This document shows positions 420 through 64,000 of a DNA stretch of 64,000 nucleotides, one piece after another. The position numbers were made by a program, and so were the translations under genes. The stretch comes from Henricia sp. BOLD:AAB3569 (lineage: Eukaryota; Echinodermata; Asteroidea; Spinulosida; Echinasteridae), in NCBI GenBank assembly GCA_037783545.1, contig JBBELK010000013.1, positions 1 through 64,000 on the forward strand, written 5' to 3'. Within the stretch, counting starts at the first letter, position 1. Each line of letters opens with the position of its first letter. The notes below the pieces were generated by a model. The model saw only the letters and a list, made by a program, of their open reading frames with translations. It searched no databases and was not told the origin of the DNA.

Positions 420-1091
420 GTTTGGGATATAGAGTTGTTTTAGCAGGCAAAATTGGAAGTTTGTCTGCCAATTCCTTCAGTTCCAAAATAGCGACCGTTT
501 CAGACGCAAGGTTTCACGAAAGCGGCGTCTGCTCGTGCGAAAAGGAGTTTTTGCTAGATTCGACGATAACTCTGTCGGTTTAAACGGGAAATTGCTGAAA
601 TTTGCACAACACGTTTGGGATATAGAGTTGTTTTAGCAGGCGAAATTGGAAGTTTGTCTGCAAATTCCTTCAGTTCCAAAATAGCGACCGTTTCAGACGC
701 AAGGTTTCACGAAAGCGGCGTCTGCTTGTGCGAAAACTGCGCCGGCAGGGAGTTTTTGCTAGATTCGACGATAACTCTGTCGGTTTAAACGGGAAATTGC
801 TGAAATTTGCACAACACGTTTGGGATATAGAGTTGTTTTAGCAGACAAAATTGGAAGTTTGTCTACCAATTCCTTCAGTTCCAAAATAGCGACCGTTTCA
901 GACGCAAGGTTTCACGAAAGCGGCGTCTGCTCGTGCGAAAAGGAGTTTTTGCTAGATTCGACGATAACTCTGTCGGTTTAAACGGGAAATTGCTGAAATT
1001 TGCACAACACGTTTGGGATATAGAGTTGTTTTAGCAGGCAAAATTGGAAGTTTGTCTGCCAATTCCTTCAGTTCCAAAATAGCGACCGTTT

Positions 1092-1122
1092 CAGACGCAA
1101 GGTTTCACGAAAGCGGCGTCTG
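1092..1122. repeat. Nested inverted repeat within the monomer (representative)
   Basis: The outer arms CAGACGC (1,092-1,098) and GCGTCTG (1,116-1,122) are perfect complements. Between them, TTTC-AC-GAAA forms a second small dyad. The structure is present in nearly every unit. Units with ggcatctgc in place of ggcgtctgc (for example near 5,514 and 14,298) break one base pair. It could be a protein-binding dyad or a cruciform or hairpin in a transcript; nothing in the sequence decides between these. Confidence 0.7.
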
Positions 1123-1163
1123 CTCGTGCGAAAAGGAGTTTTTGCTAGATTCGACGATAACTC

Positions 1164-1180
1164 TGTCGGTTTAAACGGGA
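1164..1180 (+). other. CENP-B-box-like 17-mer (one copy per monomer)
   Basis: The 17-mer tgtcggtttaaacggga aligns without gaps to the mammalian CENP-B box NTTCGNNNNANNCGGGN. It matches eight of the nine essential bases; the exception is G instead of T at position 2. It also matches optional bases of the human box at positions 7, 11, 12 and 17. The same 17-mer recurs in most units of the array. Some sub-domain D units carry tgtctgtttaaacggga or end in acagga, which reduces the match. With equal base frequencies, a match of at least 8/9 somewhere on either strand of one 193-bp monomer has a chance probability of roughly 4%. The pattern is therefore suggestive, not proof of protein binding. Confidence 0.5.
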
Positions 1181-4100
1181 AATTGCTGAAATTTGCACAA
1201 CACGTTTGGGATATAGAGTTGTTTTAGCAGGCAAAATTGGAAGTTTGTCTGCCAATTCCTTCAGTTCCAAAATAGCGACCGTTTCAGACGCAAGGTTTCA
1301 CGAAAGCGGCGTCTGCTCGTGCGAAAAGGAGTTTTTGCTAGATTCGACGATAACTCTGTCGGTTTAAACGGGAAATTGCTGAAATTTGCACAACACGTTT
1401 GGGATATAGAGTTGTTTTAGCAGGCAAAATTGGAAGTTTGTGTGCCAATTCCTTCAGTTCCAAAATAGCGACCGTTTCAGACGCAAGGTTTCACGAAAGC
1501 GGCGTCTGCTTGTGCGAAAACTGCGCCGGCAGGGAGTTTTTGCTAGATTCGACGATAACTCTGTCGGTTTAAACGGGAAATTGCTGAAATGTGCACAACA
1601 CGTTTGGGATATAGAGTTGTTTTAGCAGGCAAAATTGGAAGTTTGTCTGCCAATTCCTTCAGTTCCAAAATAGCGACCGTTTCAGACGCAAGGTTTCACG
1701 AAAGCGGCGTCTGCTCGTGCGAAAAGGAGTTTTTGCTAGATTCGACGATAACTCTGTCGGTTTAAACGGGAAATTGCTGAAATTTGCACAACACGTTTGG
1801 GATATAGAGTTGTTTTAGCAGGCAAAATTGGAAGTTTGTGTGCCAATTCCTTCAGTTCCAAAATAGCGACCGTTTCAGACGCAAGGTTTCACGAAAGCGG
1901 CGTCTGCTTGTGCGAAAACTGCGCCGGCAGGGAGTTTTTGCTAGATTCGACGATAACTCTGTCGGTTTAAACGGGAAATTGCTGAAATGTGCACAACACG
2001 TTTGGGATATAGAGTTGTTTTAGCAGGCGAAATTGGAAGTTTGTCTGCAAATTCCTTCAGTTCCAAAATAGCGACCGTTTCAGACGCAAGGTTTCACGAA
2101 AGCGGCGTCTGCTTGTGCGAAAACTGCGCCGGCAGGGAGTTTTTGCTAGATTCGACGATAACTCTGTCGGTTTAAACGGGAAATTGCTGAAATTTGCACA
2201 ACACGTTTGGGATATAGAGTTGTTTTAGCAGGCAGAATTGAAAGTTTGTGTGCCAATTCCTTCAGTTCCAAAATAGCGACCGTTTCAGACGCAAGGTTTC
2301 ACGAAAGCGGCGTCTGCTTGTGCGAAAACTGCGCCGGCAGGGAGTTTTTGCTAGATTCGACGATAACTCTGTCGGTTTAAACGGGAAATTGCTGAAATGT
2401 GCACAACACGTTTGGGATATAGAGTTGTTTTAGCAGGCGAAATTGGAAGTTTGTCTGCAAATTCCTTCAGTTCCAAAATAGCGACCGTTTCAGACGCAAG
2501 GTTTCACGAAAGCGGCGTCTGCTTGTGCGAAAACTGCGCCGGCAGGGAGTTTTTGCTAGATTCGACGATAACTCTGTCGGTTTAAACGGGAAATTGCTGA
2601 AATTTGCACAACACGTTTGGGATATAGAGTTGTTTTAGCAGGCAAAATTGGAAGTTTGTCTGCCAATTCCTTCAGTTCCAAAATAGCGACCGTTTCAGAC
2701 GCAAGGTTTCACGAAAGCGGCGTCTGCTCGTGCGAAAAGGAGTTTTTGCTAGATTCGACGATAACTCTGTCGGTTTTAAACGGGAAATTGCTGAAATTTG
2801 CACAACACGTTTGGGATATAGAGTTGTTTTAGCAGGCAAAATTGGAAGTTTGTCTGCCAATTCCTTCAGTTCCAAAATAGCGACCGTTTCAGACGCAAGG
2901 TTTCACGAAAGCGGCGTCTGCTCGTGCGAAAAGGAGTTTTTGCTAGATTCGACGATAACTCTGTCGGTTTAAACGGGAAATTGCTGAAATTTGCACAACA
3001 CGTTTGGGATATAGAGTTGTTTTAGCAGGCGAAATTGGAAGTTTGTCTGCAAATTCCTTCAGTTCCAAAATAGCGACCGTTTCAGACGCAAGGTTTCACG
3101 AAAGCGGCGTCTGCTTGTGCGAAAACTGCGCCGGCAGGGAGTTTTTGCTAGATTCGACGATAACTCTGTCGGTTTAAACGGGAAATTGCTGAAATTTGCA
3201 CAACACGTTTGGGATATAGAGTTGTTTTAGCAGACAAAATTGGAAGTTTGTCTACCAATTCCTTCAGTTCCAAAATAGCGACCGTTTCAGACGCAAGGTT
3301 TCACGAAAGCGGCGTCTGCTCGTGCGAAAAGGAGTTTTTGCTAGATTCGACGATAACTCTGTCGGTTTAAACGGGAAATTGCTGAAATTTGCACAACACG
3401 TTTGGGATATAGAGTTGTTTTAGCAGGCAAAATTGGAAGTTTGTCTGCCAATTCCTTCAGTTCCAAAATAGCGACCGTTTCAGACGCAAGGTTTCACGAA
3501 AGCGGCGTCTGCTCGTGCGAAAAGGAGTTTTTGCTAGATTCGACGATAACTCTGTCGGTTTAAACGGGAAATTGCTGAAATTTGCACAACACGTTTGGGA
3601 TATAGAGTTGTTTTAGCAGGCAAAATTGGAAGTTTGTCTGCCAATTCCTTCAGTTCCAAAATAGCGACCGTTTCAGACGCAAGGTTTCACGAAAGCGGCA
3701 TCTGCTCGTGCGAAAACTGTGCCGGCAGGGAGTTTTTGCTAGATTCGACGATAACTCTGTCGGTTTAAACGGGAAATTGCTGAAATGTGCACAACACGTT
3801 TGGGATATAGAGTTGTTTTAGCAGGAGAAATTGGAAGTTTGTCTGCAAATTCCTTCAGTTCCAAAATAGCGACCGTTTCAGACGCAAGGTTTCACGAAAG
3901 CGGCGTCTGCTTGTGCGAAAACTGCGCCGGCAGGGAGTTTTTGCTAGATTCGACGATAACTCTGTCGGTTTAAACGGGAAATTGCTGAAATTTGCACAAC
4001 ACGTTTGGGATATAGAGTTGTTTTAGCAGGCAGAATTGAAAGTTTGTGTGCCAATTCCTTCAGTTCCAAAATAGCGACCGTTTCAGACGCAAGGTTTCAC

Positions 4101-4770
4101 GAAAGCGGCGTCTGCTTGTGCGAAAACTGCGCCGGCAGGGAGTTTTTGCTAGATTCGACGATAACTATGTCGGTTTAAACGGGAAATTGCTGAAATGTGC
4201 ACAACACGTTTGGGATATAGAGTTGTTTTAGCAGGCGAAATTGGAAGTTTGTCTGCAAATTCCTTCAGTTCCAAAATAGCGACCGTTTCAGACGCAAGGT
4301 TTCACGAAAGCGGCGTCTGCTTGTGCGAAAACTGCGCCGGCAGGGAGTTTTTGCTAGATTCGACGATTACTCTGTCGGTTTAAACGAGAAATTGCTGAAA
4401 TTTGCACAACACGTTTGGGATATAGAGTTGTTTTAGCAGGCAGAATTGAAAGTTTGTGTGCCAATTCCTTCAGTTCCAAAATAGCGACCGTTTCAGACGC
4501 AAGGTTTCACGAAAGCGGCGTCTGCTCGTGCGAAAACTGTGCCGGCAGGGAGTTTTTGCTAGATTCGACGATAACACTGTCGGTTTAAACGGGAAATTGC
4601 TGAAATTTGCACAACACGTTTGGGATATAGAGTTGTTTTAGCAGGCAAAATTGGAAGTTTGTCTGCCAATTCCTTCAGTTCCAAAATAGCGACCGTTTCA
4701 GACGCAAGGTTTCACGAAAGCGGCGTCTGCTCGTGCGAAAAGGAGTTTTTGCTAGATTCGACGATAACTC

Positions 4771-53100: not shown

Positions 53101-53526
53101 CTGCTCGTGCGAAAAGGAGTTTTTGCTAGATTCGACGATAACTCTGTCGGTTTAAACGGGAAATTGCTGAAATTTGCACAACACGTTTGGGATATAGAGT
53201 TGTTTTAGCAGGCAAAATTGGAAGTTTGTCTGCCAATTCCTTCAGTTCCAAAATAGCAACCGTTTCAGACGCAAGGTTTCACGAAAGCGGCGTCTGCTCG
53301 TGCGAAAAGGAGTTTTTGCTAGATTCGACGATAACTCTGTCGGTTTAAACGGGAAATTGCTGAAATTTGCACAACACGTTTGGGATATAGAGTTGTTTTA
53401 GCAGGCAAAATTGGAAGTTTGTCTGCCAATTCCTTCAGTTCCAAAATAGCGACCGTTTCAGACGCAAGGTTTCACGAAAGCGGCGTCTGCTCGTGCGAAA
53501 AGGAGTTTTTGCTAGATTCGACGATA
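38101..53526 (+). repeat. Satellite sub-domain D (1,386/1,771/3,895-bp blocks)
   Basis: Diagnostic variants are aattgaaag, tagcaaccg, the 204-bp gtgcggcaggg module, tctgtttaaacggg, gatatacag, gatattgag and actatgtcggtttaaacagg. The gatatacag/gatattgag unit pair recurs at 43.0, 44.4, 45.2, 47.0, 49.1 and 50.9 kb with spacings of 1,386, 1,771 and 2,124 bp. A 3,895-bp block of about 20 units is clear: 45,192 matches 49,087, 46,210 matches 50,105, 46,619 matches 50,514 and 46,963 matches 50,858. From 51.3 kb to the insertion almost all units are 193 bp. Confidence 0.82.
53524..53526. repeat. Left target-site duplication ATA
   Basis: The ATA in the satellite word cgacgATAactctg is present on both sides of the insertion, here and at 63,102-63,104. 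An uninterrupted monomer has it only once. Reading the duplication as TA instead would leave an unpaired base at one terminus, so the 3-bp reading is preferred. Confidence 0.8.
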
Positions 53527-53640
53527 TAGTCTACACCCTTATGGCGTAAAAATATCATTTGTGTGCAACTTCGGGTACAATCTTTGATTTTTTCACGGAT
53601 TACTCTTTGGTTAGTGGGAAACCCAAATCCGCTTGTTGCC
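53527..53640 (+). repeat. Left terminal inverted repeat of the composite element
   Basis: The reverse complement of the right end matches in three separated blocks: the outermost 9 bp (53,527-53,535), a perfect 15-mer ttcgggtacaatctt (53,570-53,584), and caaatccgcttgttgcc (53,624-53,640; 16 of 17 matched). The DNA between the blocks has diverged and differs in length. The inward order is the same at both ends, which rules out chance similarity. Confidence 0.85.
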
Positions 53641-53984
53641 TAATTTTGCTGACCCCGAAAAGGTGCTTTTTCGAGGTTTTTTGGAAATAAAAATGCAGAC
53701 GACGCGACGTGGAATTTAGCGCACGAAGCAATATTACCCAATCACGAAGATGCCCAACTAGGAACCCTTCTGTATTAAGAACTGTACACACTGCGTTCGA
53801 ATTTGGGTTCAATTCGCAAAGTGATCAGGTGATGGTATCGCACACTACAGACAAGGCTAGCTTCTACTAACAGTTTATGCAGTCACAAGATACGTGTTAA
53901 TTTTGGCCGTGCCGTATCGCCATATGTGAAACACGTCTGTGAAGTTGTCAGCACATCAGGTTTGTTTATGCATGCTTGTATAAT
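53641..53984. other. Unrecognised single-copy segment inside the element
   Basis: About 340 bp between the left terminal repeat and the hairpin at 53,985. A 70-codon open frame on the minus strand (53,600-53,812) overlaps the terminal repeat and shows no motif I recognise. No promoter, RNA gene or repeat was identified. Confidence 0.5.
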
Positions 53985-54019
53985 CATGGAGGTAGGAATT
54001 TTCTTTTCCTACCTCCATG
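53985..54019. repeat. Perfect 14-bp stem, 7-nt loop inverted repeat
   Basis: CATGGAGGTAGGAA (53,985-53,998) and TTCCTACCTCCATG (54,006-54,019) are perfect complements around the loop ttttctt. It lies 15 bp outside the start of the large inverted repeat and has no counterpart at the other side (59,344 onward). It could be a fossil of a short palindromic insertion or a recombination-prone hairpin. Confidence 0.85.
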
Positions 54020-54034
54020 GTCCTACCAGGATGG

Positions 54035-56200
54035 GTGTAAAACGCGGAACGACGGAATGACGGAACGACTAAAAAATGGGTGTTACAACAGATATTGTCC
54101 CCCGGCCCCATATACCGATATACACAATAAGCACTGTTCATACGTCTGCATAGAATTAAATGTTTTCGTATCAAGAACGCTTTGTTCCAGGATAACCTTT
54201 CCGGTTTTGAATTCCACAGTCCTCGGACTATCTGTACATCATCTGAAAATTCTGGAACAACCCGTCCCAAGGGGCCTAAAACGGCCATTCCTTAACGGTT
54301 ATTCTCAATGCACGCAATTAGTGCGGTAACTGCATTTTATTAGCCTACATTTTACGTCTGCATAGAATTAAATGTTTTCGTATCAAGAACGCTTTGTTCC
54401 AGGATAACCTTTCCGGTTTTGTATTCTACAGTCCTCGGACTATCTGTACATCATCTGAAAATTCTGGAACAACCCGTCCCAAGGGGCCTGAAACGGCCAT
54501 TCCTTAACGGTCATTCTCAATGCACGCAATTAGCGGTAACTGCATTTTATTAGCCTACATTTTACGTCTGCATAGAATTAAATGTTTTCGTATCAAGAAC
54601 GCTTTGTTCCAGGATAACTTTTACTGTTTTGTTTTCCACAGTCCTCGGACTATCTTTACATCATCAGGAAATTCTGGAACAACCTGTCCCAAGGGGCCAA
54701 AAACGGCCATTCCATAACGGTCATTCTCAATGCACGCAATTAGTGCGGTATATAGGTCTACATTTTACGTCTTCATAGGAATTCATTTTTTCGTATCAAG
54801 AACGCTTTGTTCCAGGATAACCTTTACGGTTTTGTATTCCACAGTCCTCGGACTATCTTTACGTCATCAGGAAATTATGGAACAACCCGTCCCAAGGGTC
54901 CTAAAATGGCCATTCCGTAACGGTAATTCTCATTGCACGCAATTAGTGCGGTAACTGCATTATATAGGCCTACATTTTACGTCTGCATAGAAATTCATTT
55001 TTCTGTATCAAGAACGCTTTGTTCCAGGATAACTTTTACTGTTTTGTTTTCCACAGTCCTCGGACTATCTTTATATCATCGGGAAATTCTGGAACAACCC
55101 GTCCCAAGGGGCCAAAAACGGCCATTCCATAACGGTCATTCTCAATGCACGCAATTAGTGCGGTATATGTCTACATTTTACGTCTTCATAGAAATTCAAT
55201 TTTCCGTATCAAGAACGCTTTGTTCCAGGATAACTTTTACGGTTTTGTATTCCACAGTCCTCGGACTATCTTTACGTCATCGGGAAATTCTGGAACAACC
55301 CGTCCCAAGGGTCCTAAAATGGCCATTCCGTAACGGTAATTCTCATTGCACGCAATTAGTGCGGTAACTGCATTATATAGGCCTACATTTTACGTCTGCA
55401 TAGAAATTCATTTTTCTGTATCAAGAACGCTTTGTTCCAGGATAACTTTTACTGTTTTGTTTTCCACAGTCCTCGGACTATCTTTATATCATCGGGAAAT
55501 TCTGGAACAACTCGTCCCAAGGGTCCTAAAATGGCCATTTCGTAACGGTAATTCTCATTGCACGCAATTAGTGCGGTAACTGCATTATATAGGCCTACAT
55601 TTTACGTCTGCATAGAAATTCATTTTTCTGTATCAAGAACGCTTTGTTCCAGGATAACTTTTACTGTTTTGTTTTCCACAGTCCTCGGACTATCTTTATA
55701 TCATCGGGAAATTCTGGAACAACCCGTCCCAAGGGTCCTAAAATGGCCATTCCGTAACGGTAATTCTCATTGCACGCAATTAGTGCGGTAACTGCATTAT
55801 ATAGGCCTACATTTTACGTCTGCATAGAAATTCATTTTTCTGTATCAAGAACGCTTTGTTCCAGGATAACTTTTACTGTTTTGTTTTCCACAGTCCTCGG
55901 ACTATCTTTATATCATCGGGAAATTCTGGAACAACTCGTCCCAAGGGTCCTAAAATGGCCATTCCGTAACGGTAATTCGCATTGCACGCAATTAGTGCGG
56001 TAACTGCATTATATAGGCCTACATTTTACGTCTGCATAGAAATTCATTTTTCTGTATCAAGAACGCTTTGTTCCAGGATAACTTTTACTGTTTTGTATTC
56101 CACAGTCCTCGGACTATCTTTATATCATCGGTAAATTCTGGAACAACTCGTCCCATGGGTCCCAAAATGGCCATTCCATTACGGTCATTCTCAATGCTCG
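54035..56200 (+). repeat. Left arm: ten tandem 201-212-bp sub-repeats
   Basis: Unit starts, taken at tacgtct, fall at 54,141, 54,353, 54,563, 54,766, 54,978, 55,179, 55,391, 55,603, 55,815 and 56,027. Two unit types are seen: about 212 bp with tctgcatag, and about 201-203 bp with tcttcatag (units 4 and 6). Each unit contains atcaagaacgctttgttcc, a cagtcctcggactatct word, ctggaacaacccgtccc and a tgcacgcaattagtgcggta junction. Open frames of 65-144 codons in several phases run through the units because unit lengths shift the frame; they look like by-products. Confidence 0.92.
54046..54069 (+). repeat. Three tandem octamers GGAAYGAC, left end
   Basis: ggaacgac, ggaatgac and ggaacgac lie in tandem 11 bp from the outer end of the inverted repeat. 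The mirror copy is at 59,309-59,332. Symmetric short direct repeats near the ends of a mobile element can be transposase binding sites; that role is an inference. Confidence 0.7.
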
Positions 56201-56283
56201 TGGAATAGATTGTCGTTGGATGACCTCGAACATTGTTAAACTCCCCATCACTCTCCACTTCTAGTGGTTGTCTGGATACATTG
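56201..56283. other. Short spacer before the LINE fragment
   Basis: Follows the end of the left arm (tcaatgctcg). It is probably more of the LINE body, but no conserved block is readable. Separately, a run of twelve A sits inside the decayed LINE region at 56,501-56,512. Confidence 0.4.
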
Positions 56284-57025
56284 AATGATTATAGAAAAAC
56301 CATAGATCACGTTACTTTATTAATTATAAAAGCTAAACGTGAATATTTTGATCATGTGTCAGCTAAGTATAAGCTTATACAGTAAGAATCCTAAAAAGTT
56401 ATGGCATGAGGTTCACAAAGTCACGGGAAATAATAAATTTATTAACAGTACGTATCCAGATCTTGTTCTGAAATGAATGATTTTTTGTACTTGCATTGGT
56501 AAAAAAAAAAAATAGCTCACTCATTTAAAAAGGCTTCTTCAATTTGCAAGAATCCTGAGTGTATTTATACTCTTCGTTTTGACCCTATCCCTGAGGAGTC
56601 TATATTGAAGTCCTTACGTCATCCGAGTGCAGATAGTAATCTTGATGTTTGGGACTTTGATACTAGACTCCTCAGGCTATAGGTGCATAATTTACAGATC
56701 ACTCTGCTACATTTTTAATCGGTCTCTTATAAGAGTGGATTTATTCCAGATGATTGGAGATTTTCCCGACTCCGATTTACAAGGGAAAGGTTGTAAAAAG
56801 GATAAAGGTAATTACAGACCAATCTCTGTTGTTTGTCATGTTGCTAAAATTAAGTTTAGGTTCAACTTCTGGATTATCTTAATACCCATGATATATGTTT
56901 ACAGCTGATCAATTTGCATTTCTTAAAAAATTAACCACTCTACAAAGTCATGTTTACATCGAGTTATTTATGACTTTTATAATGCCTTTAATGAACATAA
57001 AGCTATTTTCTGTTTTCTTGACAGG
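56284..57025 (+). pseudogene. LINE (non-LTR) reverse-transcriptase fragment, decayed
   Basis: Short conserved blocks in changing frames and correct order match the linker and early reverse-transcriptase domain of LINE ORF2. These are AKREYF near 56,329; NPKKLW near 56,397; a block with FDPIPEES from 56,575 to 56,679; IPDDW near 56,743; GNYRPISV at 56,807-56,830 followed by AKI; DQFAFLK at 56,907-56,927; and YDFYNAFNEH ending in FCFLDR at 57,025. NYRPIS and the final F.D, the first catalytic aspartate region (motif A), are hallmarks of non-LTR reverse transcriptases. At least four frameshifts or stops separate the blocks. The catalytic YADD-type motif is absent because the fragment stops where the right arm begins. 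The clade is not assigned. It lies wholly in the spacer of the inverted repeat. Confidence 0.85.
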
Positions 57026-59343
57026 TTGTTCCAGAATTTCCTGATGATGCAAAGATAGTCCGAGGACTGTGGAATACAAAACCGTAAAAGTTATCCTGGA
57101 ACAAAGCGTTCTTGAAATGGAACATTGAATTTCTATGAAGACGTAAAATGTAGACCTATATACCGCACTATTTCGTGCAATGAGAATGACCGTTACGGAA
57201 TGGCCGTTTTTGGCCCCTTGGGACGGGTTGTTCCATAATTTCCTGATGACGTAAAGATAGTCCGAGGACTGTGGAATACAAAACCGTAAAGGTTATCCTG
57301 GAACAAAGCGTTCTTGATACAGAAAAATCAATTTCTATGCAGACGTAAAATGTAGGCCTATAATGCAGTTACCGCACTAATTGCGTGCAATGAGAATGAC
57401 CGTTACGGAATGGCCATTTTAGGACCCTTGGGACGGGTTGTTCCAGAATTTCCCGATGACGTAAAGATAGTCCGAGGACTGTGGAATACAAAACCGTAAA
57501 AGTTATCCTGGAACAAAGCGTTCTTGAACCGGAACATTGAATTTCTATGAAGACGTAAAATGTAGACCTTATATACCGCACTAATTGCGTGCATTGAGAA
57601 TGATCGTTATGAAATGGCCGTTTTTGGCCCCTTGGGACGGGTTGTTCCAGAATTTCCCGATGATATAAAGATAGTCCGAGGACTGTGGAAAACAAAACAG
57701 TAAAAGTTATCCTGGAACAAAGCGTTCTTGATACAGAAAAATGAATTTCTATATGCAGACGTAAAATGTAGGCCTATATAATGCAGTTACCGCACTAATT
57801 GCGTGCAATGAGAATTACCGTTACGGAATGGCCATTTTAGGACCCTTGGGACGGGTTGTTCCAGAATTTCCCGATGATATAAAGATAGTCCGAGGACTGT
57901 GGAAAACAAAACAGTAAAAGTTATCCTGGAACAAAGCGTTCTTGATACAGAAAAATAAATTTCTATGCAGACGTAAAATGTAGGCCTATATAATGCAGTT
58001 ACCGCACTAATTGCGTGCAATGAGAATTACCGTTACGGAATGGCCATTTTAGGACCCTTGGGACGGGTTGTTCCAGAATTTCCCGATGACGTAAAGATAG
58101 TCCGAGGACTGTGGAATACAAAACCGTAAAAGTTATCCTGGAACAAAGCGTTCTTGATACGGAAAATTGAATTTCTATGAAGACGTAAAATGTAGACCTA
58201 TATACCGCACTAATTGCGTGCATTGAGAATGACCGTTATGGAATGGCCGTTTTTGGCCCCTTGGGACGGGTTGTTTCAGAATTTCCCGATGATATAAAGA
58301 TAGTCCGAGGACTGTGGAAAACAAAACAGTAAAAGTTATCCTGGAACAAAGCGTTCTTGATACAGAAAAATGAATTTCTATGCAGACGTAAAATGTAGGC
58401 CTATATAATGCAGTTACCGCACTAATTGCGTGCAATGAGAATTACCGTTACGGAATGGCCATTTTAGGACCCTTGGGACGGGTTGTTCCAGAATTTCCCG
58501 ATGATATAAAGATAGTCCGAGGACTGTGGAAAACAAAACAGTAAAAGTTATCCTGGAACAAAGCGTTCTTGATACAGAAAAATGAATTTCTATATGCAGA
58601 CGTAAAATGTAGGCCTATATAATGCAGTTACCGCACTAATTGCGTGCAATGAGAATTACCGTTACGGAATGGCCATTTTAGGACCCTTGGGACGGGTTGT
58701 TCCAGAATTTCCCGATGATATAAAGATAGTCCGAGGACTGTGGAAAACAAAACAGTAAAAGTTATCCTGGAACAAAGCGTTCTTGATACAGAAAAATGAA
58801 TTTCTATGCAGACGTAAAATGTAGGCCTATATAATGCAGTTACCGCACTAATTGCGTGCAATGAGAATTACCGTTACGGAATGGCCATTTTAGGACCCTT
58901 GGGACGGGTTGTTCCAGAATTTCCCGATGACGTAAAGATAGTCCGAGGACTGTGGAATACAAAACCGTAAAAGTTATCCTGGAACAAAGCGTTCTTGATA
59001 CGGAAAATTGAATTTTTATGAAGACGTAAAATGTAGACCTATATACCGCACTAATTGCGTGCATTGAGAATGACCGTTATGGAATGGCCGTTTTAGGACC
59101 CTTGGGACGGGTTGTTCCATAATTTCCTGATGATGTAAGGATAGTCCGAGGACTGTGGAATACGAAACAGTAAAAGTTATCCTGGAACAAAGCGTTGTTG
59201 ATACGAAAAAATGAATTTCTATACAGACGTATATCATTATGTATGAACAGTGCAAATTGTGTATATCGATGTATGGGGGACAATATCTGTTGTAACACCC
59301 AGTTTTTAGTCGTTCCGTCATTCCGTCGTTCCGCGTTTTACAC
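57020..59343 (-). repeat. Right arm: eleven inverted sub-repeats
   Basis: Reverse-complement units are marked by agatagtccgaggactgtgg near 57,055, 57,255, 57,465, 57,675, 57,887, 58,099, 58,301, 58,513, 58,725, 58,937 and 59,143. The innermost unit is cut, starting at caggttgttccag. The order of the two unit types (gcagacg and gaagacg forms) is not the mirror image of the left arm, so the arms have expanded or been homogenised separately since they became inverted. Confidence 0.92.
59309..59332 (-). repeat. Three tandem octamers GGAAYGAC, right end
   Basis: Reverse-complement copy of the left triplet (gtcgttcc, gtcattcc, gtcgttcc), 11 bp from the right outer end. All three octamers are conserved, whereas the sequence between positions 59,215 and 59,280 has drifted from the left arm. 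Confidence 0.7.
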
Positions 59344-60424
59344 GGGTCCATAAGGATGCCCTAGAGTTTGACATTGAATCGAGTCATTTTTTGTGAAAGA
59401 AAGTTTGCAATAATCGGGTTTTGATATCGTTTTATGCTCAATGTTTCCCACACTTAACAACATTGCGACAACCATCGCTGTCCATTTCGTGGGGCAGTTT
59501 CTTCAGTTTGTTCCTTGCGCTTTGCACATATCGTGCTTCCATTGTTAAACGGTTTAAGTTACAAAAGGTGTCCCACGAAATACGGCTAATCGATACGGTA
59601 TATACAGGATAAAGCTGGGGTTACTTTGGGGGAGGTGGGTGGTTTTCATACATGGGAATAAAGTTGTCTGGAGAGACGAGATGTTTTGGACGCGTTGTAC
59701 ATGTCGAGCTGTCTTAATGTAGCTATAGGCCTACAGTATATGTTTATATTTCGCTGATCATTTGTGGCGAATTTGTAGTTGTACCCTTTGCTTAATTCAA
59801 GCGAATAAGTACCTGATGAGGGTATCATTTTCAGTGACTCCATTTTTTTCTGAGTTTACAAGAAAAACCGGAACGAACACTCAACTGTACTCAGACGTTA
59901 TTAATTTTCCTTCAAACGATCTTTTAAACATGAATAAGTGTAAATCTAATGAAACAAATTGGAAGATTTCACTAGGAAAAAAATAAGAATTCTCCCGAGT
60001 TGCCTCATCTATGTTTCGTGCAAGAGGCCTATGTGACGACGCCCTACCAATTCAGCTATGAAGCCAACTGGTGGTCTCGAATCACGGTAGTACAGTTGTT
60101 CCTCACTGATTGGGATTTGCTATTACGTGAGCTTAGCAAGGCATACAGAGAAATAACCACCCCTCCCAGAGATTAAGTTTTGTTAGTTTTGTTTTCATAA
60201 TAATCGTCTATAAAACACTAATTTATTACAGAAAAACAACTCTAACAAGCCTGAAATTATTAATATCCTTACCATATTTTGAATCGTGTAAATTTTGAGG
60301 AATGGGAGTCTTTTGGCTTAAGTTACAAGAGTGTGAGAGGCAGCTGAAGGAATGACTGCAAAGAGACATTTCAAGAAATACATGTACATCATTTCGGGGG
60401 TATTTTATTGACAGATTTGCAGAA
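59344..60424. other. Unrecognised segment, about 1.1 kb
   Basis: AT-rich DNA between the giant inverted repeat and the Tc1-like remnant. Open frames are at most 74 codons with no recognisable motif. The only hint of structure is a tRNA A-box-like word on the minus strand at 60,040-60,058, described separately. No tandem repeat was found. Confidence 0.5.
60040..60058 (-). other. tRNA A-box-like word (possible SINE relic)
   Basis: The minus strand reads tagctgaattggtagggcg, close to the D-arm/A-box sequence of tRNAs (typically TAGCTCAGTTGGTAGAGCG). A TTCGAGACC-like B-box word lies at about 60,073-60,083, but upstream of the A box on that strand, the reverse of the order in a tRNA or tRNA-derived SINE. 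I could not fold a cloverleaf, so this is a weak relic at best. Confidence 0.25.
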
Positions 60425-60760
60425 AATATGTCTAGCCTCCTTAGATCAGTTCAAAGTCCTTTTTACAATCAATGGAAAATGCCTTGTGGTACTGGCTCAC
60501 AACGTATCTGCGTGGAATTTGGCCAACTCCGCTTTGAGGTTGAAAGGCTCTCCTCCATCTCGATTGAGTTGAGGTCCGGACTTTGGCCTGGCCACTCTAC
60601 GCCTGCAACATTATACCGGAACCATTTCGTGACTGACTTGGCAGTGTGTTTTGGATCGTTGTCCTGCTGATATGTCAAAATGCTCCCCGAGTTTCTCTGC
60701 GGACTGCTTGATGTTTTTCTCCATGATCTTCATGTACTCAGTCACACACTTTGGCGGGCT
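60425..60760 (-). pseudogene. Tc1/mariner-like transposase fragment, frameshifted
   Basis: The central part (minus strand, 60,678 down to about 60,545) reads YQQDNDPKHTAKSVTKWF and then WPGQSPDLNSIE, the second catalytic Asp and the catalytic Glu region of the DDE transposases of Tc1-like elements. Upstream in another frame (60,760-60,690) it reads EKNIKQSAEKLG, the usual preceding segment. Downstream another frame reads LKAELAKFHADTL near 60,541-60,501. At least two frameshifts are therefore present. Only 33 residues separate the Asp of QQD from the Glu of SIE, against 34 in typical Tc1 elements, suggesting a one-codon loss. The N-terminal DNA-binding domain and both terminal repeats are missing. 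It is antisense to the LINE fragment and cannot be functional. Confidence 0.9.
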
Positions 60761-61160
60761 TTAATGTTAAATATCTTCATTACGAGTTAATTGAAAAACT
60801 CATTACAAGTTCTGCTAGACAGTTGTCCTTATATGCGTTAGCCGGCATAGTTATGAAGAATAGTTTTCGAAGTTCCACGTATATTGTTAATATTGATCAC
60901 ATGAATCTAAAATGTATTCATCTTAAGACTTTCAAAAATAAATCAACTTGGCATCCTCAGAACCTTGAAAGAACCTCTCCCCTCCCATCAAACATTCTGC
61001 TATGGAGCCCAGTACGATCTAAGATAACCTTGACCTTATTCACACGACCCTGACTTGTCTTTAGATATTCACTTGGCATTCTCAAAATCCGAGAAAGAAA
61101 TCACCAAAATTACCCAAATTGTGCCAGCGAAACCCAAAAAATGCAATACACAATTTCCAT
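60761..61160. other. Unrecognised segment before the minisatellite
   Basis: About 400 bp with no readable conserved block beyond the Tc1-like fragment. A 100-codon plus-strand open frame (60,751-61,053) begins inside that remnant and has no motif; it is probably fortuitous. TGACCTT-type words begin to appear from about 61,025, so the right part may be a highly diverged edge of the minisatellite. Confidence 0.45.
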
Positions 61161-62997
61161 CGACCTCAGCCAGGTAAGTCGGATGTCTAAATTGACCTTG
61201 ACCACTGACCTTAAATTAATACATACCATTTCCATCACTCCGATCCATGGGGAGCCAGGGGTCCTATTAAAGTGGCCTTGACCCTGGCCCTAGTTAAATG
61301 AACGTAGCATCCTGTAAATAGTAGTACAGACAACATGATTGTTGAAATTGACCAAACAGGGACCGACAAAATACATTTTTGTTATGATTAGTGACCCCTG
61401 TAACCTTTAAATTAACCTTTGACCTTGAAGATGTCCTTAAAAATCTTGGAGACTTTAATAAATAAACTCAGCATCCTGTAAATCCTACAACGGACACCAC
61501 GATTCTTAAAATTGACCAAAGAGGGCCCGCCAAAGTGCAATTTTAAGATTGTTTACCCTAGTTGTGACCTTTAAATTGACCTTTAAATTGACCTTTGACC
61601 TTGCAGATGACCATACAAATCTTAAAGACTTTAATAAATGAACTCAGCATCCTGTAAATCCTAGAATGGGCGCCACGATTGTTGAAATTGACCAACGAGG
61701 GGCCGCCAAAGTGCAATTTTAAGATTTTTGACACTAGTTATGGCCTTTAAATTTACCTTTAAATTGACTTTTGACCTTGAAGATGACCATAAAAATCTTA
61801 AAGACTTTAATAAATGAACTCAGCATCCTGTAAATCCTAGAATGGGCGCCACGATTGTTGAAATTGACCAACGAGGGGCCGCCAAAGTGCAATTTTAAAA
61901 TTGTTGACCCTAGTTATGGCCTTTAAATTGACCTTTAAATTGACTTTTGACCTTGAAGATGACCATAAAAATCTTAAAGACTTTAATAAATTAACTCAGC
62001 ATCCTGTAAATCCTAGAATGGGCGCCACGATTGTTGAAATTGACCAACGAGGGGCCGCCGAGGTGCAATTTTAAGATTTTTGACCCTAGTTATGGCCTTT
62101 AAATTGACCTTTAAATTGGCTTTTGACCTTGAAGATGACCATAAAAATATTAAAGACTTTAATAAATTAACTCAGCATCCTGTAAATCATAGAATGGGCG
62201 CCACGATTGTTGAAATTGACCAACGAGGGGCCGCCGAGGTGCAATTTTAAGATTTTTGACCCTAGTTATGGCCTTTAAATTGACCTTTAAATTGGCTTTT
62301 GACCTTGAAGATGACCATAAAAATATTAAAGACTTTAATAAATTAACTCAGCATCCTGTAAATCATAGAATGGGCGCCACGATTGTTGAAATTGACCAAC
62401 GAGGGGCCGCCAAAGTGCAATTTTAAGATTTTTGACCCTAGTTATGGCCTTTAAATTGACCTTTAAATTGACTTTTGACCTTGAAGATGACCATACAAAT
62501 CTTAAAGACTTTAATAAATGAACTCAGCATCCTGTAAATCATAGAATGGGCGCCACGATTGTTGAAATTGACCAACGAGGGGCCGCTAAAGTGCAATTTT
62601 AAGATTGTTAGTTATGGCCTTTAAATTGACCTTTAAATTGACTTTTGACCTTGAAGATGACCATAAACATCTTAAATACTTTAATAAATGAACTCAGCAT
62701 CCTGTAAATCATAGAATGGACACCACGATTGTTAAAATTGACCAGGGAAAGGGCCGTCAGAGTGCAATTTTGTGATTTTTGACCCTATGTGACCTTTAAA
62801 TTGACTTTTGACCTTGAAGATGACCTTAACAATCTTGGAGACTATAAAAAATTAACTTAGCATCCTGTCAATCCTCGAATGGGTGCCACGATTGTTAAAA
62901 TTTACCAACGAGGGGCCGCCAAAGTGCAATTGCATGGTTTTGACCCTTTATGACCTTTAAATTGACCTTTGACCTTGAAGATGACCTCTTAAAAATT
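61161..62997 (+). repeat. 176-bp minisatellite rich in TGACCT words
   Basis: The word gcatcctgtaaat or a close variant occurs at 61,307, 61,471, 61,647, 61,823, 61,999, 62,175, 62,351, 62,527, 62,697 and 62,860. The central spacings are exactly 176 bp and the outer ones are 163-170 bp. Units include gggcgccacgattgttgaaa, gaccaacgaggggccgcc and runs of ttgacctttaaa. The central units are nearly identical and the outer ones diverged, the usual pattern of a locally expanding array. Most units have TGACCTTGA (reverse TCAAGGTCA). Edge units have TGACCTTTGACCT, two half-sites one base apart. The array ends directly at the right terminal inverted repeat. Confidence 0.93.
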
Positions 62998-63101
62998 GGC
63001 AACAACCGGATTTGAATTCCTTGATATGAAATTAACATATCCTCAAATTTGCCAAGATTGTACCCGAAAATGCATATGGGACCCCTTAGTGCTGTAGACT
63101 A
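62998..63101 (-). repeat. Right terminal inverted repeat of the composite element
   Basis: Counterpart of the left terminus: tgtagacta at 63,093-63,101, aagattgtacccgaa at 63,054-63,068, and ggcaacaaccggatttg at 62,998-63,014. It is about 10 bp shorter than the left end. It abuts the 176-bp minisatellite directly. Confidence 0.85.
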
Positions 63102-63104
63102 ATA
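63102..63104. repeat. Right target-site duplication ATA
   Basis: Second copy of the ATA duplicated by the insertion. It is followed directly by actctgtcgg of the interrupted satellite unit. Confidence 0.8.
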
Positions 63105-64000
63105 ACTCTGTCGGTTTAAACGGGAAATTGCTGATATTTGCACAACACGTTTGGGATATAGAGTTGTTTTAGCAGGCAAAATTAGAAGTTTGTCTGCCAA
63201 TTCCTTCAGTTCCAAAATAGCGACCGTTTCAGACGCAAGGTTTCACGAAAGCGGCGTCTGCTCGTGCGAAAAGGAGTTTTTGCTAGATTCGACGATAACT
63301 CTGTCGGTTTAAACGGGAAATTGCTGAAATTTGCACAACACGTTTGGGATATAGAGTTGTTTTAGCAGGCAAAATTGAAAGTTTGTCTGCCAATTCCTTC
63401 AGTTCCAAAATAGCGACCGTTTCAGACGCAAGGTTTCACGAAAGCGGCGTCTGCTCGTGCGAAAAGGAGTTTTTGCTAGATTCGACGATAACTCTGTCGG
63501 TTTAAACGGGAAATTGCTGAAATTTGCACAACACGTTTGGGATATAGAGTTGTTTTAGCAGGCAAAATTGGAAGTTTGTCTGCCAATTCCTTCAGTTCCA
63601 AAATAGCGACCGTTTCAGACGCAAGGTTTCACGAAAGCGGCGTCTGCTCGTGCGAAAACTGTGCGGCAGGGAGTTTTTGCTAGATTCGACGATAACTCTG
63701 TCGGTTTAAACGGGAAATTGCTGAAATTTGCACAACACGTTTGGGATATAGAGTTGTTTTAGCAGGCAAAATTGGAAGTTTGTCTGCCAATTCCTTCAGT
63801 TCCAAAATAGCGACCGTTTCAGACGCAAGGTTTCACGAAAGCGGCGTCTGCTCGTGCGAAAACTGTGCCTGCAGGGAGTTTTTGCTAGATTCGACGATAA
63901 CTCTGTCTGTTTAAACGGGAAATTGCTGAAATTTGCACAACACGTTTGGGATATAGAGTTGTTTTAGCAGGCAAAATTGGAAGTTTGTCTGCCAATTCCT
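63102..64000 (+). repeat. Satellite array resumes after the insertion
   Basis: About 4.5 monomers of the same 193/205-bp family in the same orientation, running off the window. In order they carry aattagaag, aattgaaag, the 204-bp gtgcggcag module, the cctgcaggg module and tctgtttaaacggg. The part from aattgaaag onward repeats the order seen at about 42,460-43,000, so the right flank belongs to sub-domain D. Confidence 0.97.

Follow-up and report, generated by a model that had tools for sequence, protein, structure and literature searches.

Several known transposon superfamilies were compared with the element of this study by description. Academ elements produce target-site duplications of 3-4 bp, PIF/Harbinger elements duplicate 3 bp of the form TWA, the termini of EnSpm/CACTA elements begin with CACT, and Helitrons leave no target-site duplication. 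According to the sections of PMC10045372 that deal with these groups, Zator makes 3-bp duplications, the PIF-Harbinger/ISL2EU group none or 1-4 bp, and IS3EU elements have TA...TA termini and usually 6-bp duplications. In molluscs, Academ and Zator were reported as nearly confined to bivalves in a part of PMC10294476. Non-autonomous elements that cannot be assigned to a superfamily receive a general name in Repbase practice, as set out in one passage of PMC4455052. What is described here appears to be a new family within an established kind, and not a new type of element. Like the unassigned non-autonomous TIR transposons that Repbase files as 'DNA', it has inverted termini, a duplication of fixed length and many near-identical copies, with no transposase and no visible autonomous partner. 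It differs from them in that its typical copies are 3-6 kb long and not miniature, and in that a variable tandem array stands beside one end only. Unless its ends match an existing entry, the family would be filed under the general name.

The window, that is, the whole stretch of DNA that was analysed, is 64,000 bp long (C13:1-64000) and belongs to a genome of 740.7 Mb in 2104 contigs. A 193-bp satellite fills window positions 1-53526 and picks up again at 63102; the array is split by the element at 53527-63101, with ATA duplicated on either side. When the flanks were joined minus one ATA, they matched uninterrupted satellite gap-free over 282/282 bp at 99.6% identity, a comparison made for the window copy. 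An earlier reading of the sequence alone (the sequence-only reading) had described a satellite that breaks off and resumes with a 3-bp ATA duplication, and the joined flanks bore it out. The insert is, we consider, very probably a single member of a young family of non-autonomous TIR DNA transposons that is mobilised in trans. Its features are listed below; counts out of 25 refer to the inspected copies including that of the window, counts out of 24 to the other copies (per bin, at least half covered, for the arms of the core).

53524..53526, no strand: left copy of the target-site duplication ATA, placed by the gap-free satellite match of the joined flanks
53527..63101, + strand: the element as a whole (9575 bp), interrupting the 193-bp satellite array
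53527..53535, + strand: left terminal 9 bp, TAGTCTACA; same termini in 25/25 copies
53527..54034, + strand: left arm of the core, common to 21-23/24 other copies; its border with the nested element (near 54034) is placed to about 15 bp only
53570..53584, + strand: left inner block 1, TTCGGGTACAATCTT; at the left end in 24/25 copies
53624..53640, + strand: left inner block 2, CAAATCCGCTTGTTGCC; at the left end in 23/25 copies
54035..59343, no strand: nested foldback-like element with inverted ends GTGTAAAACGCGGAACGACGG..., absent from 24/24 other copies
54141-56197 and 57020-59231: 212-bp tandem arrays of opposite orientation within the nested element
59344..61402, + strand: middle of the core, common to 20-22/24 other copies
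60469..60729, - strand: remnant of a Tc1/mariner-like transposase; its DDE_3 match (E = 0.0043) scores 17.4 bits, under the curated cut-off of 28.6
61403..62970, + strand: tandem array of 9 units of 176 bp, adjoining the right end
62998..63014, - strand: right inner block 2, CAAATCCGGTTGTTGCC read inward; 25/25 copies
63054..63068, - strand: right inner block 1, TTCGGGTACAATCTT read inward; 24/25 copies
63093..63101, - strand: terminal 9 bp of the right end, TGTAGACTA as read on the + strand; same termini in 25/25 copies
63102..63104, no strand: right copy of the target-site duplication ATA, placed by the same match

The perfect 9-bp inverted termini and the two further inverted blocks that the sequence-only reading had pointed out were both confirmed. 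TAGTCTACA and TGTAGACTA occur once each in the window, and within the outer 115 bp of the window copy the two ends have in common, in inverted orientation, TTCGGGTACAATCTT (15/15) and CAAATCCG[C/G]TTGTTGCC (16/17). The longest word that the two ends share in inverted orientation within their outer 160 bp was 15, a length reached in 0 of 1000 mononucleotide shuffles (maximum 12). The exceptions among the inspected copies were an 874-bp copy that had neither left block, a 524-bp copy that lacked left block 2, and L056, in which right block 1 was changed.

Searches of the genome revealed that the ends are repeated many times. The pattern of the two inner terminal blocks gave 192 matches (93+99), the exact left end 95 and the exact 30-bp right end 64, whereas the reversed control gave 0 in each case. 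The possibility that no other copy with these termini exists, by which the first interpretation could have failed, was thus disproved by the exact left ends. BLAST returned 130 candidates with the left end as query (40 of them scored, 96-100%) and 116 with the right end (40 of them scored, 98-100%). Among the matches listed, merging left at least 102 left ends, at least 87 right ends and at least 75 left-right pairs, at least one of these pairs being a mispair (C1598, 14.2 kb, whose right end is used by a left end lying closer to it); 27 left and 13 right ends were unpaired among these matches, and two of the 27 (on C420 and C469) do have right ends. The median end-pair length was 4454 bp and 65 of the 75 listed pairs spanned 2.9-6.1 kb, so that the proposed length of 9.6 kb holds for the window copy and not as a trait of the family. 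The 25 inspected copies comprised that of the window, 20 standard copies, two long ones and two short ones; the standard copies were picked for having both ends detected, a choice that under-represents copies whose ends are damaged or missing. Mean pairwise divergence was 1.8% in the left end (outer 280 bp) and 2.2% in the right end (outer 320 bp), figures that omit the two short copies and one member of the duplicate pair L045/L051. The terminal regions thus differ by about 2%, and the family is therefore young. Two facing right ends with palindromic flanks were seen at C120:509540-514410 (L073 and L074), representing an inverted duplication or an assembly foldback; this locus was dropped as a copy with two right ends, the inverted duplication taking in its flanks.

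All 25 inspected copies were flanked by an exact 3-bp duplication, and a fourth base matched in 0/25; the short copies of 524 and 874 bp retained both termini and exact duplications as well. The 12-base flanks of these copies defined 24 different insertion sites with 16 different triplets, which counts against spread only within larger segmental duplications. L045 (C363) and L051 (C122) were counted as one site because their flanks are identical; this single insertion on two contigs represents uncollapsed haplotypes or a segmental duplication. The duplicated triplet was A/T-rich and directly followed by a purine at 19/24 sites. The sequence-only reading had proposed that a family would show itself by many copies sharing these termini with 3-bp duplications and by a longer copy encoding a transposase; the former was observed, supporting a non-autonomous DNA transposon family, while the latter was not found in what was read of the long copies. 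Compared with the superfamilies named above, the triplet was TAA or TTA at just 2/24 independent sites, unlike the TWA of PIF/Harbinger; all termini were TAGTCTACA and not CACT as in EnSpm/CACTA; and the constant presence of a duplication differs from Helitron. The ends TAG...CTA resemble the TA...TA termini of IS3EU/GingerRoot as given in PMC10045372, whereas the duplications of that group in the same section, usually 6 bp, differ from the 3 bp of the family. With Zator the family has in common the 3-bp duplication described there.

The interior had been said to carry no plausible cognate transposase, and our analysis agreed with this. No open frame reached 200 aa in the 20 standard copies (longest 197 aa) and none exceeded 146 aa in the window copy. 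In a Pfam scan of 9 peptides the only match was the weak DDE_3 remnant; 5 peptides from the two long copies gave one chance-level match (LAGLIDADG_2, E = 0.099). Tc1/mariner makes TA duplications, as stated in a section of PMC10045372, and the remnant is for this reason not the source of the 3-bp duplications; it was not taken for a cognate transposase. Six end pairs longer than 6.1 kb showed no evident mispairing: the window copy and those on C46 and C366 were read fully, those on C412 and C423 partly, and that on C201 (about 340853-350950, some 10 kb) was left out. No cognate transposase was found in the parts read, where the extra length consisted of nested repeats and LINE-like or LTR-element-like sequence. 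As candidates for an autonomous copy, four of these were rejected: C46 (12.3 kb) contained inverted duplications in its interior and frames of at most 137 aa; C366 (11.9 kb) was a standard copy in which a CAG...CTG element of 3.58 kb is nested, with a frame of 1249 aa, LINE-like by eye, in addition; C412 (19.4 kb read out of 23.1 kb, if this is a single element) was C46-like with LTR-retroelement-like frames by eye; and C423 (14.8 kb; 9.9 kb read) held a 173-aa frame, reverse-transcriptase-like by eye. Patterns built on the inner blocks, excluding their usual neighbour bases, yielded 1, 1, 2 and 2 matches, all of them base or length variants of the family's own ends, one of the two-match patterns being loose (its reversed control gave 6); a pattern for related outer ends gave 1 match, again the family itself. 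Each exclusion pattern keeps a fraction of conceivable relatives, and divergent ends can be missed.

The mosaic of other repeats that had been noticed in the interior was also recovered, as the nested foldback-like element, the weak Tc1/mariner-like remnant and the 176-bp array. Over at least 272 aligned bases the inverted ends of the nested element were 85% identical. Among the retrieved loci, only the window's own (L001) matched the first 326 bp of this element. In anatomy the nested element resembles Tetris of Drosophila virilis, for which a part of PMC4079207 describes long inverted ends holding tandem repeats of about 212-220 bp and no transposase; it differs in that Tetris makes 8-10-bp duplications according to the same part. 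All 24 other copies had the right array and right end in common (at least half of each bin covered). The window copy reaches 9.6 kb because this foldback-like element of 5.3 kb is nested inside it and because its internal tandem array is long. We also considered that the whole 9.6-kb unit, foldback-like interior included, is a composite that moves as one piece, as the nested element of the window copy is enclosed by both termini and by a perfect duplication. However, no other inspected copy carries the nested element, the core without it is about 4.27 kb and thus close to the family median, and the copies on C366 and C46 are likewise the core with different additions, all of which makes this very improbable. 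Nor did the suggestion of a 'composite' find support in the sense of two flanking transposons, the mosaic being the product of nesting and internal repeats.

In the reading that we prefer, a non-autonomous family mobilised in trans, each end carries an imperfect inverted repeat of some 105-115 bp, made up of TAGTCTACA and the two inner blocks, that would be the recognition region of a transposase. Encoded elsewhere, this transposase would move the element by its ends, the element would be joined to its target with a 3-bp stagger, and gap repair would then leave the 3-bp duplication. Observed directly were the ends with their duplications, a clean empty site, many copies that diverge little and, as far as the copies were read, no gene for a cognate transposase. 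The supply of the transposase in trans, movement by cut and paste, and the function of the blocks as binding sites we infer from static sequence. As a refinement compatible with this reading, the family probably belongs to a named 3-bp superfamily (Zator, Academ or a relative of PIF-Harbinger/ISL2EU) whose divergent-ended transposase was missed. The duplication lengths given at the outset for Academ and for the other two agree with such an origin. The Zator-like transposase model PF07592 (ISAzo13-like) gave 0 matches here, but likewise 0 in 14 control genomes. It is unlikely that the family is the trace of an unrecognised cut-and-paste superfamily with a transposase of its own, characterised by a 3-bp stagger, A/T-rich targets, TAGTCTACA termini, inner blocks and an array that may hold binding sites. 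The combination of these termini with an unspecific 3-bp duplication and spaced inner blocks matches no family that we can name, and the pattern searches found no partner element with the family's ends, both of which favour that idea; however, the passage of PMC4455052 accepts non-autonomous families without a superfamily assignment as a category, and no novel transposase was found.

Apart from the array beside its right end, what we have described for the non-autonomous family is ordinary transposon biology. An array with units of 161-176 bp adjoined the right end in 25/25 copies, with 1.9 to about 9 units, and the 874- and 524-bp copies consisted of little beyond about 40 and 100 bp of left end, respectively, the right-side array and the right end. 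That every inspected copy, even the one of 524 bp, has the array suggests that movement requires or tolerates it, or else its junction with the end. In Galileo, which is foldback-like, repeats within the inverted ends hold extra transposase binding sites, as reported in a part of PMC4079207; by analogy, one might guess that the array of this family provides such sites too. The exact borders now available for a recently active family are useful for repeat annotation and as bait for its transposase.

Several other repeats were met at the loci read. Within L061 (C366:541650-551600), the nested 3.58-kb element occupies element positions 603-4185; it has the inverted ends CAGTAGGGGCGCACGCGCC and is flanked on each side by ATGTT. 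Its inverted ends were 83.8% alike over 68 bp (L063 compared on C366). An 'RSGVRKNN' fragment on C366 was rejected as a transposase of the family, as it sits in this nested element, which has copies elsewhere (L063, 98.6%). A broken protein is encoded in the 3.58-kb element, and relatives of it occur in the genome (36 matches); one of them, at C870 (L066:858-3332, minus strand), has a frame of 824 aa, open at the edge of the retrieved stretch (965 aa in the search that gave the 36 matches), with no Pfam match; the broken protein and its relatives are possibly an unclassified transposase family. The 1249-aa open frame, LINE-like by eye, lies at element positions 4513-8259 of L061, nested in the family copy. 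On a 193-bp satellite we found no literature. Beside ordinary 193-bp monomers, window positions 63466-64000 hold longer satellite monomers, about 204 bp in length, into which 11-12 bp are inserted (CTGTGCGGCAG or similar).
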